Source: Thermoleophilia bacterium (GTDB taxonomy: Bacteria > Actinomycetota > Thermoleophilia > Gaiellales > JAICJC01). From it: a stretch of 41,065 nucleotides of DNA. Within the stretch, counting starts at the first letter, position 1; every line of letters starts with the position of its first letter. A model generated the notes under the pieces. That model did no database searches, was not told where the DNA came from, and saw nothing but the letters and a program-made list of their open reading frames with translations. The stretch is from assembly GCA_025928655.1 (NCBI GenBank), contig JAICJC010000015.1:1-41065 (forward strand), in the 5' to 3' direction. Both the position numbers and the translations under genes were made by a program. Positions 10,356-16,071 of this stretch are shown here, piece by piece.

Positions 10356-10462
10356 CGGCCCCGCGGGACCGACGGATCGCCGATGAGCGGCGTCTTGCGG
10401 CCCCATCGGGGGCCGGTCGTCGTGGCTACGCGCGCACGCGGACGGGCCCCTGCGGCGGGGCC
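10356..10462 (-). promoter_or_regulatory. Candidate ribosome-controlled attenuator in the metG leader
   Basis: Reading along the mRNA: hairpin 1, GGCCCC/GGGGCC (10445-10462), lies inside the uORF directly after its tandem Met codons. Hairpin 2, CGGCCCC/GGGGCCG with loop CGAT, is at 10398-10415. A smaller CGCCG/CGGCG hairpin is at 10378-10392. Hairpin 3, CGGUCCC/GGGGCCG with one G-U pair, is at 10356-10371 just before the Shine-Dalgarno sequence. All GGCCCC and GGGGCC arms can pair with one another in alternative ways, as in classical attenuators. There is no U-run, so control would be translational or Rho-type. Function is inferred from the layout. Confidence 0.45.
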
Positions 10463-10491
10463 ATCATCCGGAAGTGACTCGTGCGCGTCAT
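10426..10491 (-). CDS. Putative metG leader peptide (21 codons)
   Basis: A 21-codon ORF from ATG 10491 to TAG 10426-10428. The peptide begins MTRTSHFRMMAPP and ends PVRVRA. Codons 9 and 10 are both ATG and sit immediately before the first strong hairpin of the leader. It has no Shine-Dalgarno sequence; instead TATCCT (10498-10503) lies 6 bases upstream, which would put the transcription start at the A of the ATG (leaderless translation). Ribosome slowing at the Met codons when charged tRNA-Met is scarce would free the downstream arms to re-pair. This is inference, with no independent support in the window. Confidence 0.45.
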   Translation of the reverse strand: MTRTSHFRMMAPPQGPVRVRA

Positions 10492-10497
10492 GCCCGG

Positions 10498-10526
10498 AGG
10501 ATAGCCGCGCCCCGGCCCGGAATCAC
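10498..10526 (-). promoter_or_regulatory. Putative promoter of metG and its leader
   Basis: TATCCT (10498-10503, minus strand) fits TANNNT. With 17-bp spacing the -35 region would be GTGATT at 10521-10526, which keeps only the TGA core. The start site would fall on the leader-peptide ATG. Confidence 0.4.
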
Positions 10527-11158: not shown

Positions 11159-11179
11159 GTGGCGTGGGGAGCGGTCGGT

Positions 11180-11358
11180 CCAGAAATTCGCCGTCGTGGC
11201 TGGCCTTTCGTCCCCCGGCCGAAAGAGCTTTCGAGTTGCCTCTACGACTCCTCCGTCCGGCTTCGACCTACTCGGCTGCCCGCGACGGCGCAGTGATCAA
11301 GCTACGGCACCCGGGGTCGGTCTGCAACCCGAAAGTTCACGCAGTTTGCGAGGTTCGG
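11180..11358. repeat. Tandem repeat copy 1 (179 bp, period 207)
   Basis: First of two directly repeated copies; the second is exactly 207 bases downstream with no insertions or deletions. It contains CGAAAGAGCTTTCG (a hairpin), an overlapping alternative hairpin CTTTCG...CGAAAG, and ends with CCGAA...TTCGG around CGCAGTTTGCG. No gene was recognised in it. Confidence 0.9.
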
Positions 11359-11386
11359 CGGCCCGGCCGGCCGGGATTTCCCCGGA

Positions 11387-11565
11387 CCAGAGATTCGCCG
11401 TCGTGGCTGGCCTTTCGTCCCCCGGCCGAAAGAGCTTTCGAGTCACCTCTACAGCTCCTCCGTCCGGCTTCGACCTACTCGGCTGCCCTCGACGGCGCAG
11501 GAGTGAAGGTACGGCACCGGGGGACGGCTTGCAACCCGAAAGTTCACGCACTTTGCGAGGTTCGG
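11387..11565. repeat. Tandem repeat copy 2
   Basis: Second copy, differing from copy 1 at about 16 of 179 positions by eye. The hairpin-forming segments are fully kept, and changes cluster between them. It ends 21 bases before the TAGAGT -10 box of the M55 peptidase gene, so it lies upstream of, not inside, that transcript if the gene is leaderless. Together with copy 1 it fills the 440-base gap between the DUF1989 gene and the peptidase gene. Confidence 0.9.
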
Positions 11566-11586
11566 GGCACACCACTTCGCATCATC

Positions 11587-11600: not shown

Positions 11601-12428
11601 ATGCGCGTCTTCATCGTCAGCGACATGGAGGGCGTCGCCGGCATAACGAACTGGAGCGGGGTCGGCGCCGGTGATCCGCTGTACGAGGAGGGCCGCACCC
11701 TCTACACCGAGGAGATCAACGCGGCCGTCCGCGGCGCGCGGGCCGGAGGGGCGACCGAGGTCGTCGTCATGGACTGCCACGGCGCCGGGGGCGACCTGTC
11801 GTTCAACTCGCTTCGGCCCGACCTGCTGGACGACGGCTGCGAGTTCGTCGTCCAGCGCGAGTGGACCGAGTACACCGGCGCGCTCGAGGACGGCTGCGAC
11901 GCGGCCCTCTTCATCGGCATGCACGCGATGGCGGGCACCGGCGACGGGGGGATGAGCCATACCGTCTCGGGCACCCAGTGGCACGGCCTCTCCTTCAACG
12001 GCCGCGAGGTGGGCGAGACCGGGATCAACGCCGCGCTGTGCGGGGCGTGGGGCTGCCCGGTGCTGCTCGTGACCGGGGATCAGGCCGCCTGCCGTGAGGG
12101 CCGGGAGCTGCTCGGCGACGGACTCCAGACGGTGCAGGTGAAGACGTCGCTCGGCCGGTTCAGCGCCCGCCACAAGACGCCCAACGTGGCCCGCGCGATG
12201 ATCGAGGAGGGCGCGAAGCGCGCGCTCGCCGACGTCAGGGCGGTCGCGCCCTACGACCCGGGCAGGCCGTGCGAGATCCGGGTCGAGTTCGCGAGCCCCG
12301 ACCACACCGAGCAGTTTCGCCACCACCCCGCGGTCGAGATCACCGACCCGCGCACGATCGTGAGCGCGGGCCCCGACTGGTGGACGGCCTGGCGCCAGTT
12401 CTACTTCTCGTTCCGGTGGCCGGACTGA
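11601..12428 (+). CDS. M55-family D-aminopeptidase (DppA-like)
   Basis: A 275-residue zinc aminopeptidase of the DppA family, which releases N-terminal D-amino acids from peptides, for example in cell-wall peptide recycling. The binuclear zinc site is complete: SDMEG (D8, E10), DCHG (H60), GMHA (H108) and GETGINA (E139). The C-terminal region has the usual RVEFASPDH segment. An open frame continues upstream through the tandem repeats, but the ATG at 11601 matches the family N-terminus (MRVFIVSDMEG) and has a -10 box 8 bases away. Its stop overlaps the next ATG by one base. Confidence 0.9.
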   Translation: MRVFIVSDMEGVAGITNWSGVGAGDPLYEEGRTLYTEEINAAVRGARAGGATEVVVMDCHGAGGDLSFNSLRPDLLDDGCEFVVQREWTEYTGALEDGCDAALFIGMHAMAGTGDGGMSHTVSGTQWHGLSFNGREVGETGINAALCGAWGCPVLLVTGDQAACREGRELLGDGLQTVQVKTSLGRFSARHKTPNVARAMIEEGAKRALADVRAVAPYDPGRPCEIRVEFASPDHTEQFRHHPAVEITDPRTIVSAGPDWWTAWRQFYFSFRWPD

Positions 12429-13816
12429 TGGCGCGCGAGTACCCGACCATCCTCGACCTGATCGGCGGCACGCCGCTCGTGCGGCTGGAGCGGGTGGCGC
12501 GCGACGTCGAGCCGACCGTGCTCGCGAAGGTCGAGTGGATGAACCCCGGCGGCTCGGTGAAGGACCGGATCGGCCTGCGCATGATCGAGGCGGCGGAGCG
12601 CGAGGGCCTGCTGCGGCCCGGCGGGACGATCGTCGAGCCGACCTCCGGCAACACCGGGGTGGGCCTGGCGATGGTCGCCGCCCGCCGCGGCTACCGGATG
12701 ATCTTCGTCATGCCCGACAAGATGAGCCAGGAGAAGATCTCGCTCCTGCGCGCCTTCGGGGCCGAGGTGATCGTGTGCCCGACGGCCGTCGACGCCGATT
12801 CGCCGGAGAGCTACTACTCGGTGTCCGACCGGCTGGCCGAGGAGATCCCGGGCGCCTTCAAGCCCAACCAGTACGCGAATGCCGCCAACCCCAAGGCCCA
12901 CTACGACACCACCGGCCCGGAGATCTGGGAGGGGACGGGCGGCGAGATCGACGCGCTCGTGATCGCCGTCGGCACCGGCGGCACCATCTCCGGCTCGGCC
13001 CGGTACCTGAAGGAGCGCAAGCCGGATCTGCTCGTCGTCGGCGCCGACCCGGAGGGCTCGATCTACTCCTCCGAGACGATGCACCCGTACCTGGTCGAGG
13101 GCATCGGCGAGGACTTCTGGCCGCAGACGTTCGACCCGACGCTGGTCGATGAGTACGTGACCGTGTCCGACCGCGACTCGTTCCTGACGGCCCGCCGCAT
13201 GGCCCGCGAGGAGGGCATGCTCGTCGGCGGCTCGGCCGGGACGGCGATCCACGCGGCGCTCGAGGTGGCCGGCCGCTTCGGCCGCGACGCCACCATCGTC
13301 ACGCTGATCCCCGACGGCGGCCGCGCCTACCTGAGCAAGTTCCTGAACGACAACTACATGCTCGAGTACGGGTTCCTCGAGCGCTCGACGCCGGTGCCCA
13401 CGGTCGAGCAGGTGGCCCAGGCCAAGCACGGCGCCGAGCTGCCGGAGCTGGTCACGATCGAGGCCCACCACAAGGTGGGCGAGGCGATCGAGCTCATGCA
13501 GCGCTACTCGATCTCGCAGCTCCCGGTGGTGCGGACACAGCCGCCCGAGTCGCTGGCGGACGTGGTCGGGTCGCTGCAGGACCGCAGCCTGCTCGACCGC
13601 GTCTTCAAGAACCCGGACGCGCTCCAGGACAACGTCGCCGAGGCGATGGGGCCACCGCTCGCCGCCGTCGACGCCGCCGACTCGCTCGACCGCGTCTTCG
13701 CCGACCTCACCGCCGGCAGCCCCGCCGTCGTCGTGGTGCGTGACGGCCGGCCGGCGGGGATGCTGAGCCGCTCCGACCTGCTCGAGTACCTGGCCCACCG
13801 GCGAAACGGCGCGTGA
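12428..13816 (+). CDS. cbs: Cystathionine beta-synthase
   Basis: PLP enzyme condensing serine (or O-acetylserine) with homocysteine to cystathionine; 462 residues. The catalytic domain spans about 1-325: PLP lysine K45 in NPGGSVKDR, the PTSGNTG loop near residue 71, and GTGGTISG for the phosphate. Two C-terminal CBS (Bateman) domains span about 335-462 (EAHHKVGEAIELMQRYSISQ; AMGPPLAAVDAADSLDRVF). The heme-binding N-terminus of animal CBS is absent. It overlaps the preceding gene by one base and the next by four. With the gamma-lyase/synthase gene at 14944 it makes a reverse-transsulfuration pair. Confidence 0.92.
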   Translation: MAREYPTILDLIGGTPLVRLERVARDVEPTVLAKVEWMNPGGSVKDRIGLRMIEAAEREGLLRPGGTIVEPTSGNTGVGLAMVAARRGYRMIFVMPDKMSQEKISLLRAFGAEVIVCPTAVDADSPESYYSVSDRLAEEIPGAFKPNQYANAANPKAHYDTTGPEIWEGTGGEIDALVIAVGTGGTISGSARYLKERKPDLLVVGADPEGSIYSSETMHPYLVEGIGEDFWPQTFDPTLVDEYVTVSDRDSFLTARRMAREEGMLVGGSAGTAIHAALEVAGRFGRDATIVTLIPDGGRAYLSKFLNDNYMLEYGFLERSTPVPTVEQVAQAKHGAELPELVTIEAHHKVGEAIELMQRYSISQLPVVRTQPPESLADVVGSLQDRSLLDRVFKNPDALQDNVAEAMGPPLAAVDAADSLDRVFADLTAGSPAVVVVRDGRPAGMLSRSDLLEYLAHRRNGA

Positions 13817-14934
13817 CGCCGCTCTCCGCGGCGTCGCTGCGCCGGCACGTCGTCGCCGCCCAGGGCTACTCGACCCGGCCCCGGCGCGGCACCGCCGCCG
13901 ACGTCGAGGCCACGGTCGCGCGCCTGGGGTGCGTCCAGCTCGACTCGATCTCGACCGTCGCCCGCAGCCACCGGCTGACGCTGCTCTCGCGGATCGGCAC
14001 CTACCCGACGGGCACCGTGTCGAAGCTCCTGCGCAGCGGGCGCCTGTTCGAGTACTGGGCCCATGAGGCATGCCTGCTGCCGATCGAGCTCTGGCCGCTC
14101 ATGCGCAGCTTCATGCGCGACCGCACCCACCCCTGGTGGGGCCCGATCATCGAGCGCGAGCCGGCGCTGGCCGATCACGTCATGGGCGCGATCCGGGAGC
14201 GCGGCCCGCTCGGCTCCCGCGACTTCGAGGGGGAGCGCTCGGGCGGCATGTGGAACCTGAAGCCGGCCAAGCGGATGCTGGAGGCGCTGTGGAGCGCGGG
14301 TGACCTCGTGATCGCCGGCCGCCAGGGCTTCCAGCGGATGTACGACCTGCCCGAGCGGGTGGTCCCCGACGACGTCCTCGGCGCGCCGGTCCCCGGCGAC
14401 GACGAGGTGTTGCGGCGGCTGATCGTGCTCGCCGTGCGCGGCCGCGGCGCGCTGACCGAGGCGGGCGTCGTCGAGCACTGGCGGCTGCGCGGCGGGACGG
14501 CCCGGATCCGCCCGCACGTCGCCGACGTCGTCGCCGCGGGCGAGCTGCGCCGGGCCGAGGTGGCCGACGGCGGGGCGCCGGCCCTCATCGCCGCCGACGC
14601 CGATCCCGGGGCCGCCCGCCCGGCGGGCGCCGTCCTGCTCTCCCCGTTCGACAACCTGCTCTGGGACCGCCCCTTCGCCGAGCGGGTGCTCGGCTTCAGG
14701 CACCTGATCGAGGTCTACAAGCCGGCGCCGGAGCGGCGCTACGGCTACTACGTGCTGCCGCTCCTGTCCGGCGACCGGATCGTCGGCCGCGCCGACGTCA
14801 AGGCCGACCGGGCGGCGAGGACGCTCACGGCGAAGGCCTGGCATCCGGAGGGCCGCTTCCGCAGCACGGCGCCGCTCGAGCGGGCGCTGGCCCGGCTGGC
14901 CCGCCAGCTCGGCCTCCGGCCGGTGCACGGGTAG
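13813..14934 (+). CDS. AlkZ/YcaQ-like DNA glycosylase (HTH_42 family)
   Basis: A 373-residue winged-helix protein of the YcaQ/AlkZ/AlkX family, DNA glycosylases for bulky N-alkyl lesions and interstrand cross-links. The catalytic QxD motif is present as VQLDSISTVARSH (Q42, D44). Other family marks are EYWAHEACLLP, SPFDNLLWDR and the C-terminal YYVLPLLSGDRIVGRADVK. GTG start overlapping the CBS stop (GTGA), so it is translationally coupled. Its place between the two transsulfuration genes is odd; a link between cysteine or thiol supply and alkylation repair is conceivable but only inferred. Confidence 0.85.
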   Translation: MTPLSAASLRRHVVAAQGYSTRPRRGTAADVEATVARLGCVQLDSISTVARSHRLTLLSRIGTYPTGTVSKLLRSGRLFEYWAHEACLLPIELWPLMRSFMRDRTHPWWGPIIEREPALADHVMGAIRERGPLGSRDFEGERSGGMWNLKPAKRMLEALWSAGDLVIAGRQGFQRMYDLPERVVPDDVLGAPVPGDDEVLRRLIVLAVRGRGALTEAGVVEHWRLRGGTARIRPHVADVVAAGELRRAEVADGGAPALIAADADPGAARPAGAVLLSPFDNLLWDRPFAERVLGFRHLIEVYKPAPERRYGYYVLPLLSGDRIVGRADVKADRAARTLTAKAWHPEGRFRSTAPLERALARLARQLGLRPVHG

Positions 14935-14939
14935 ATTCC
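14934..14939 (+). promoter_or_regulatory. Internal -10 box before the cystathionine gamma-lyase gene
   Basis: TAGATT begins at the last base region of the glycosylase stop codon and lies about 6 bases before ATG 14944. It predicts an internal leaderless transcript in addition to read-through from the operon. Confidence 0.4.
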
Positions 14940-14943
14940 CGCC

Positions 14944-16071
14944 ATGGACTTCGAGACCCGCGCCATCCACGCCGGCCAGGAGCCCGATCCGCGCACGGGC
15001 GCCGTGGCCGTCCCGATCTATCAGACCTCGACCTACGCCCAGCGGGCCGTCGGCGAGTACGAGTACGACTACTCGCGCACGCGCAACCCCACCCGCGACG
15101 CGCTCGAGGAGTGCCTGGCGTCACTCGAGGGCGCCGCCCACGGCCTCGCCTTCGCGTCCGGCATGGCGGCCGCGACGACGGTGATGCACCTGGTCGACCC
15201 GTCCCGGCGCGTGGTCTCGGTGAACGACGTCTACGGCGGCACCTACCGGCTGTTCTCGAAGGTGTACGAGCCGAAGGGCTACCGCTTCTCCTACCTGTCG
15301 GCCGAGCAGTGCAACACCGAGCTCGCCGACCACCTCGGCGACGACACGGCGCTCGTGTGGCTGGAGACGCCGACGAACCCGCTCCTCAACGTGGTCGACC
15401 TGCGCGCCGCCGCCGACGCCGCGCACGCGGCCAGCGCCCTCGTCGTCGTGGACAACACCTTCGCGTCGCCCTACCTGCAGCGGCCGATCGAACACGGGGC
15501 CGACATCGTCGTCCACTCGACGACGAAGTACCTGGGCGGCCACTCCGATCTCATCGGCGGCTTCGCAGCCACCGGCGACGCCGGCCTCGCCGAGCGGCTG
15601 GCGTTCCTGCAGAACTCGCTCGGCGGCGTGCCGGGGCCGCTGGACGCGTGGCTCGTGCTGCGGGGGCTGAAGACGCTCGGCGTGCGCATGCGGGCGCACT
15701 GCGAGAACGCGGCCGCGATCGTGGAGTTCCTGCAGGGCCACGACCGGGTCGAGCGGGTGCTCTACCCGGGCATCGGCGAGCACCCGGGGCACGACATCGC
15801 CCGCCGCCAGATGGACGGCTTCGGGGGCATGGTGTCGTTCCTGGCCGCCTCCGAGGACGAGGCGGTGGCGCTCGCCGCCCGCACGAAGATCTGGACGCTC
15901 GCCGAGAGCCTCGGGGGAGTGGAGAGCCTGATCGAGCACCCCGGCCGCATGACCCACGCCTCGACGGCGGACTCCCCCTTCGCGACGCCCGGCACGCTCG
16001 TGCGGCTCTCGGTCGGGATCGAGTCGGCCGCCGACCTGATCGCCGACCTCGACCAGGCCCTGCGCGGCTAG
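14944..16071 (+). CDS. Cystathionine gamma-lyase / gamma-synthase family PLP enzyme
   Basis: A 375-residue Cys/Met-metabolism PLP enzyme. It has the family opening (TRAIHAGQEPD), YSRTRNPTRDALE, the SGMAA phosphate loop near 72-76, ETPTNP, and the PLP lysine K195 in HSTTKYLGGHSD. The late SLGGVESLIEHP motif is typical of MetB/CGL. Paired with cystathionine beta-synthase, cystathionine gamma-lyase (making cysteine) is the most likely role, though gamma-synthase cannot be excluded by motif. The stop runs directly into a two-level palindrome (16071-16109) shared with the convergent GNAT gene. Confidence 0.9.
   Translation: MDFETRAIHAGQEPDPRTGAVAVPIYQTSTYAQRAVGEYEYDYSRTRNPTRDALEECLASLEGAAHGLAFASGMAAATTVMHLVDPSRRVVSVNDVYGGTYRLFSKVYEPKGYRFSYLSAEQCNTELADHLGDDTALVWLETPTNPLLNVVDLRAAADAAHAASALVVVDNTFASPYLQRPIEHGADIVVHSTTKYLGGHSDLIGGFAATGDAGLAERLAFLQNSLGGVPGPLDAWLVLRGLKTLGVRMRAHCENAAAIVEFLQGHDRVERVLYPGIGEHPGHDIARRQMDGFGGMVSFLAASEDEAVALAARTKIWTLAESLGGVESLIEHPGRMTHASTADSPFATPGTLVRLSVGIESAADLIADLDQALRG

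Follow-up and report, generated by a model that had tools for sequence, protein, structure and literature searches.

The question raised by this stretch of Thermoleophilia DNA (contig JAICJC010000015.1 of assembly GCA_025928655.1, 41,065 nucleotides, hereafter the window) is why a metG gene on its minus strand should be preceded by a short upstream open reading frame (uORF) with two consecutive ATG codons and a chain of similar hairpins. Our answer, drawn from sequence comparison, is that this leader is very probably a leaderless, ribosome-mediated attenuator, specific for methionine, of an auxiliary methionyl-tRNA synthetase (MetRS) that has spread horizontally and whose gene we call metG-aux. 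A -10-like box, TATCCT (10503-10498), stands exactly 6 nucleotides 5' of the ATG of the uORF (10491-10426), which has 21 codons, encodes MTRTSHFRMMAPPQGPVRVRA and is predicted to be leaderless; its tandem ATG codons 9 and 10 (10467-10462) are the putative sensor of Met-tRNA. Hairpin 1 (10462-10445) follows directly, with its arm A1 (GGCCCC, 10462-10457) beginning inside the second ATG and pairing with A2 (GGGGCC, 10450-10445). Hairpin 2 (CGGCCCC/GGGGCCG, 10415-10398) is made of B1 (10415-10409) and B2 (10404-10398), and hairpin 3 (CGGTCCC/GGGGCCG, 10371-10356) of C1 (10371-10365) and C2 (10362-10356); alternatively, B1 can pair with A2 rather than B2, and C1 with B2 rather than C2. Helix D (10387-10337), in which CTCATCGG (10387-10380) pairs with CCGATGAG (10344-10337), closes hairpin 3 and sequesters the metG ATG, while the Shine-Dalgarno sequence AAGGGAG (10353-10347) lies directly 3' of hairpin 3. 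The gene itself (10341-8863) encodes 492 amino acids and scores above the TIGR00398 cut-off. The positions of the uORF, ATG pair, box, three hairpins and Shine-Dalgarno site given in an earlier note on this DNA are thus confirmed on the minus strand, and the parts of a ribosome-mediated attenuator layout (tandem codons, a hairpin at the codons, exclusive pairings and an output element) are all present. Its limits for the element, 10356-10503, are correct but stop short, as helix D carries the element to 10337; likewise, its metG does encode a MetRS, but an auxiliary second copy, the housekeeping MetRS being encoded elsewhere in the genome.

The comparison of leaders that the earlier note had called for covered 43 auxiliary MetRS genes from Thermoleophilia, other actinomycetes, and plasmids of Embleya, Streptomyces and Rhizobiaceae. 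A short upstream ORF with two or three consecutive Met codons (MM or MMM) precedes 37 of them, and MxM occurs in another two. The Met codons begin at codon 5-12 and are in frame without exception, and because the frame is kept while the DNA word changes (ATGATG, ATGATGATG, ATGCGAATG, ATGGCGATG), selection seems to act on the codons themselves. Internal Met makes up 12% of the leader residues versus 1% in MetRS proteins, and a wide range of residues (A, R, P, S, L, I) follows the pair. The start, stop and frame of the uORF are conserved in relatives, and in the nearest two, whose proteins are 86% and 64% identical to that of the window, the leader is kept and the flanking DNA is unrelated. The edge of pairwise conservation falls some 10-60 nucleotides 5' of the uORF ATG, i.e., at or just before the -10 box, and a TANNNT box at the same distance from the ATG is found in 10/10 Thermoleophilia leaders and in 27 of the 42 leaders listed. 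From the position of the box and this edge we infer that the uORF is leaderless, with the transcript starting at or next to the ATG, in agreement with the earlier note. Scans of the window for sigma-70 promoters and U-tract terminators found none, so that the TATCCT box is identified by its position and conservation.

No such uORF precedes the 26 actinobacterial housekeeping metG genes inspected (0/17 in carrier genomes and 0/9 in further actinomycetes), which rules out a leader common to all actinobacterial metG genes. A near relative without the leader (L183) is the only MetRS found in its own genome. Among 64 other metG loci used as a control, a Met uORF was seen at two, both from Ktedonobacter (K. 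racemifer and K. robiniae; L095 and L099), where the region approximately 120-290 nucleotides 5' of metG holds a uORF rich in Met (...MDQMSMMMASGRVSLFLSTPDYAQTC) together with a very long hairpin. That metG falls outside the auxiliary clade, and the genome has a second MetRS gene besides it; the uORF may mark an independent Met attenuator, and the two sequences are too nearly identical for conservation to be judged. In one of the surveyed leaders (L038, leader end 3052), the sequestered ATG is out of frame with the ATG that corresponds by homology to the metG start and lies about 86 nucleotides 5' of it; it may be the start of another ORF, or else the contig may be frameshifted.

The auxiliary status of the gene is a direct observation. 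A second MetRS, 46% identical to metG-aux, is encoded on another contig of the window genome (G000:C138:2956-4356), and a second MetRS was present in 18/18 carrier genomes first checked and in 11/12 further carriers. The HLGH and KLSKS motifs are intact in metG-aux, and the enzyme is therefore probably active. Its relatives are patchily distributed, with 9/399 genomes of the class, 4/396 of the phylum and 9/298 of the order of a Planosporangium genome carrying one. A tree of 68 MetRS proteins brings the auxiliary sequences together in a single group, separate from the housekeeping enzymes and supported at 99% for the 27 actinobacterial rows and at 81% for the 34 rows that include the rhizobial plasmid copies; the nearest neighbours of the group are MetRS from bacteria of the candidate phyla radiation (CPR) and DPANN archaea. 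Phage MetRS genes are distant (<40% identical). Carriers include Gaiella, Solirubrobacteraceae, Planosporangium, Actinoplanes, Jiangella and Oerskovia, and the gene is plasmid-borne in Embleya, Streptomyces, Rhizobium, Sinorhizobium and Agrobacterium, one carrier plasmid of the rhizobial group being typed as conjugative.

Some individual carriers depart from this pattern. One Thermoleophilaceae genome (G237) has two auxiliary metG copies (L035 and L039), each with an intact leader, besides the housekeeping gene. In a 3.0-Mb genome (G793) the sole MetRS found is the auxiliary one with an MM leader (L178), and either the genome may be incomplete or the housekeeping MetRS may really have been replaced. 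A match on an Agrobacterium vaccinii plasmid, typed as conjugative (L173), covers only query residues 260-512, about half of the rhizobial-type auxiliary MetRS, which suggests a decayed copy.

The RNA structure is conserved together with the codons. Since MAFFT put hairpin 2 in the wrong place when divergent leaders were aligned, a covariance model was built on four Thermoleophilaceae and Solirubrobacteraceae leaders that align almost gap-free, with the window excluded. This model matches the window leader at an E-value of 1.9e-8 and two Micromonosporaceae leaders at 6e-5 and 4e-4. Over 129 genomes of the order, its strong matches (E <1e-6) are confined to the six genomes with the auxiliary gene and lie directly 5' of it; four weak matches (E 0.002-0.009) were treated as chance. 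In an alignment of ten leaders the named structure is paired in 94.2% of cells, versus 32-47% when the structure is slid, although this alignment was fitted to the tested structure and somewhat favours it, 6/10 sequences being outside the model building. Compensatory changes, which the earlier note had proposed to look for, were found in the ten leaders: 11 pairs are altered on both sides, a count reached by 0/500 shuffles. The evidence extends to hairpin 1 (helices 1 and 2 of the covariation analysis), hairpin 2 (helix 3) and hairpin 3 (helix 5), and helix D is paired in 98.8% of cells with two pairs changed on both sides. Loss of the peptide or of the alternative pairing in relatives, which the earlier note held to be damaging to its idea, was not what we saw: the alternative helices A2:B1 and B2:C1 are paired in 91.2% of cells (82.8% and 97.4%, respectively), versus 28-63% when slid. 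As for known elements, no Rfam family matched at its gathering score in the window or 12 relatives, the S-box, SAM-IV, metH and metK models included, and the T-box covariance models gave no match in the leader at E-values up to 5.

Folding calculations on a truncated window transcript are consistent with a switch whose steps we would order as follows. The transcript would start at the uORF ATG or right beside it, and translation of the uORF would be leaderless. With Met-tRNA charged, the ribosome would pass the tandem Met codons and leave, hairpins 1, 2 and 3 would form, and helix D with hairpin 3 would bury the Shine-Dalgarno region and the AUG, keeping metG-aux off. When charged Met-tRNA is scarce, because cells are starved of methionine or because the housekeeping MetRS fails or is inhibited, the ribosome would stall at codons 9-10 and mask A1; A2, thus released, would pair with B1, and B2, released in turn, would pair with C1 before transcription reaches C2 and the start codon. 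With C1 captured by B2, metG-aux would be translated. In the ribosome-free leader of the window the calculated probability that the metG start codon is unpaired is 0.02, and the start codon is buried (probability unpaired ≤0.2) in 13/13 ribosome-free leaders of Thermoleophilia and Micromonosporaceae, for which start-codon sequestration is the likely output. In a window transcript ending after C1, a stalled ribosome gives A2:B1 and B2:C1 probabilities of 0.85 and 0.91, whereas without the ribosome B1:B2 reaches 0.85 and B2:C1 only 0.01; B2:C1 pairing holds the D1 strand in a loop and leaves the metG start free in these models. The mutually exclusive pairings of an attenuator (1:2 and 3:4 versus 2:3) are thus predicted to be available, with mixed energetic support.

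Several results weigh against this reading. A single internal Met, rather than a tandem, is found in 3/43 leaders (L048, L181 and L191), and one gene (L179, 1/43) has no leader. In the full-length equilibrium fold with a stalled ribosome, the metG start of the window is still paired (probability unpaired 0.00), so the switch must be kinetic; in truncated transcripts, however, switching is clear in only 4/10 Thermoleophilia leaders, and the kinetic step is therefore one that we infer. A ribosome parked at the stop codon also favours B2:C1 (0.8) in the window. Covariation of the alternative pairing is weak, being matched by 5-51 of 500 shuffles, and the arms of the three hairpins are so nearly identical that part of this pairing would be expected anyway.

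The leaders of other lineages bear on the nature of the output. The first hairpin arm lies at or just after the Met codons in other families too, and the plasmid copies of Rhizobiaceae combine MMM with a terminator hairpin and an antiterminator, with a clear U-tract in 4/6 leaders and a weak one in the other two (L164 and L165). Their four-arm layout is ATGATGATG-CCGCGC, GCGTGGCGG, ACCGCC and GGCGGTTTTT, in which arm 2 is calculated to pair with arm 3 in the stalled, truncated transcript; these arms are nearly invariant and hence uninformative for covariation. Runs of T after a hairpin are also present in Jiangella, Oerskovia, L178 and L121. One Met-codon sensor therefore seems to drive two kinds of output, translational and transcriptional, and in these other lineages it would act on a terminator rather than on a sequestering hairpin. 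The same sensor might end in transcription termination in the window as well, either intrinsic at hairpin 2, which is the positional counterpart of the terminator in Jiangella and Rhizobiaceae, or Rho-dependent, as some actinobacterial leaders have no obvious terminators and Rho has been suggested for cys leaders (PMC1262725). We consider this unlikely, though well worth keeping in view, given that no T run follows hairpin 2 of the window and that Thermoleophilia leaders preserve helix D across the metG start, compensatory changes included.

Other explanations would do without stalling at the Met codons. The uORF could work by constitutive translation, by coupling or through a functional small peptide, and its C-terminal residues (GPVxVR, GLLGVR) are indeed partly conserved; across families, however, little is common beyond the Met codons and the context that the hairpin imposes on the residues, and Met persists at codons 5-14 in the form of MM, MMM or MxM, along with the structure, which makes this explanation improbable. 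The chain of hairpins freeing a ribosome-binding site also resembles the translational attenuators known for resistance genes, such as ermC, and the Met residues could form the arrest motif of a drug-dependent or nascent-chain arrest leader of the erm type. This we find more improbable still: the controlled gene is the cognate synthetase of the repeated codon, and the residues flanking the Met pair are too variable for a peptide arrest motif. Finally, high-GC DNA abounds in GC-rich hairpins and in short ORFs that contain MM, and strong folding is the default for GC-rich leaders; the window leader folds at -100.6 kcal/mol against a shuffle mean of -87.6, beating 199/200 shuffles (z -3.0). Chance nevertheless deserves practically no weight, and on the comparative data it is already refuted by the frequency of the uORF at auxiliary genes against that at housekeeping and other metG loci, by the covariation, and by the match of the window to a model trained without it.

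The other flank of the leader-bearing intergenic stretch is a urea-amidolyase-associated (UAAP-type) gene (11158-10556, minus strand). Beyond it, at 11164-11575, an imperfect repeat appears in translated ORFs (FAVVAGLSSPGRKSFRV.STTPPSGFDLLGCPRRR, twice), the DNA being apparently non-coding. On the plus strand, the translations at 12269-16071 include cystathionine beta-synthase-like and cystathionine gamma-synthase/lyase-like frames. Their closeness to metG-aux may be coincidence, for in G002, where the copy is 86% identical, the DNA immediately 5' of the gene is unrelated.

Synthetase genes under ribosome-mediated attenuation are already known, one auxiliary synthetase among them, and what appears to be new is the version with Met codons and metG. 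In line with the earlier note, which knew of no such system, no description of a leader-peptide attenuator for metG or methionine genes as such was found in the open-access literature searched or, for metG, in Rfam, although an unseen description is possible. Methionine had been a gap in leader-peptide control, and there is an oddity to it, since no leader ORF can be translated without initiator Met-tRNA, which the same enzyme charges. The strict link to a second MetRS suggests a spare enzyme that would be switched on when the resident one fails and that possibly resists a MetRS inhibitor. We go further only tentatively, with a proposal that is rather doubtful at present: an old mobile cassette of auxiliary MetRS and Met attenuator may have moved between Actinomycetota and Alphaproteobacteria, plasmids included, swapping only its output module and providing an inducible way around a housekeeping MetRS that has been poisoned, which would point to an undiscovered natural MetRS inhibitor. 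The system could open a way to natural MetRS inhibitors and provides a portable biosensor of Met-tRNA, and the family appears to join one sensor to translational and transcriptional outputs within a single gene lineage.

Leader-peptide attenuators have been described in Actinobacteria for leuS, trpS, ilvB, leuA and cys genes, in a 2005 survey that found no conserved RNA structure ahead of methionine operons (PMC1262725), and in S. lividans for thrS, alaS and metNIQ, the leader ORFs of Actinobacteria being frequently leaderless (PMC8079986). The S. lividans metL leader of metNIQ lacks a clear terminator, and its Met codons are scattered (PMC8079986). Our leader shares with these attenuators a short, often leaderless ORF with cognate codons, followed by hairpins, 5' of synthetase or biosynthesis genes, but none of them controls metG. 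The pheST genes have also been named as an attenuated synthetase system (PMC1262725). The likeness lies in ribosome-mediated attenuation of a synthetase gene by its cognate codon. In E. coli, however, pheST is a housekeeping gene whose pheM leader is led by a Shine-Dalgarno sequence, carries Phe codons and ends in a terminator, whereas metG-aux is auxiliary and its uORF has Met codons and is predicted to be leaderless. Control of MetRS by Met-tRNA charging, as predicted here, is also achieved by the T-box leaders of Firmicutes MetRS genes, but the T-box binds the tRNA directly, without a uORF, and none was matched here. An extra MetRS is likewise found in Streptococcus pneumoniae, whose second enzyme is insensitive to MetRS inhibitors according to the passage of PMC8165550 that cites Gentry 2003. 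There too it stands beside a resident one, although it is a different kind of MetRS. We know of no Met-codon leader described for it. In Streptomyces coelicolor, trpRS1 is reportedly under ribosome-mediated transcriptional attenuation, a finding ascribed to Vecchione and Sello in 2010 (J Bacteriol 192:3565; cited in PMC4787780). Its product is an auxiliary, indolmycin-resistant TrpRS (PMC9437257). Like trpRS1, metG-aux is a second synthetase copy in an actinomycete, predicted to be controlled through cognate codons in a leader peptide; unlike trpRS1, it encodes a MetRS, and its leader carries Met codons, is predicted to sequester the start codon in the window lineage, and occurs in two phyla and on plasmids.
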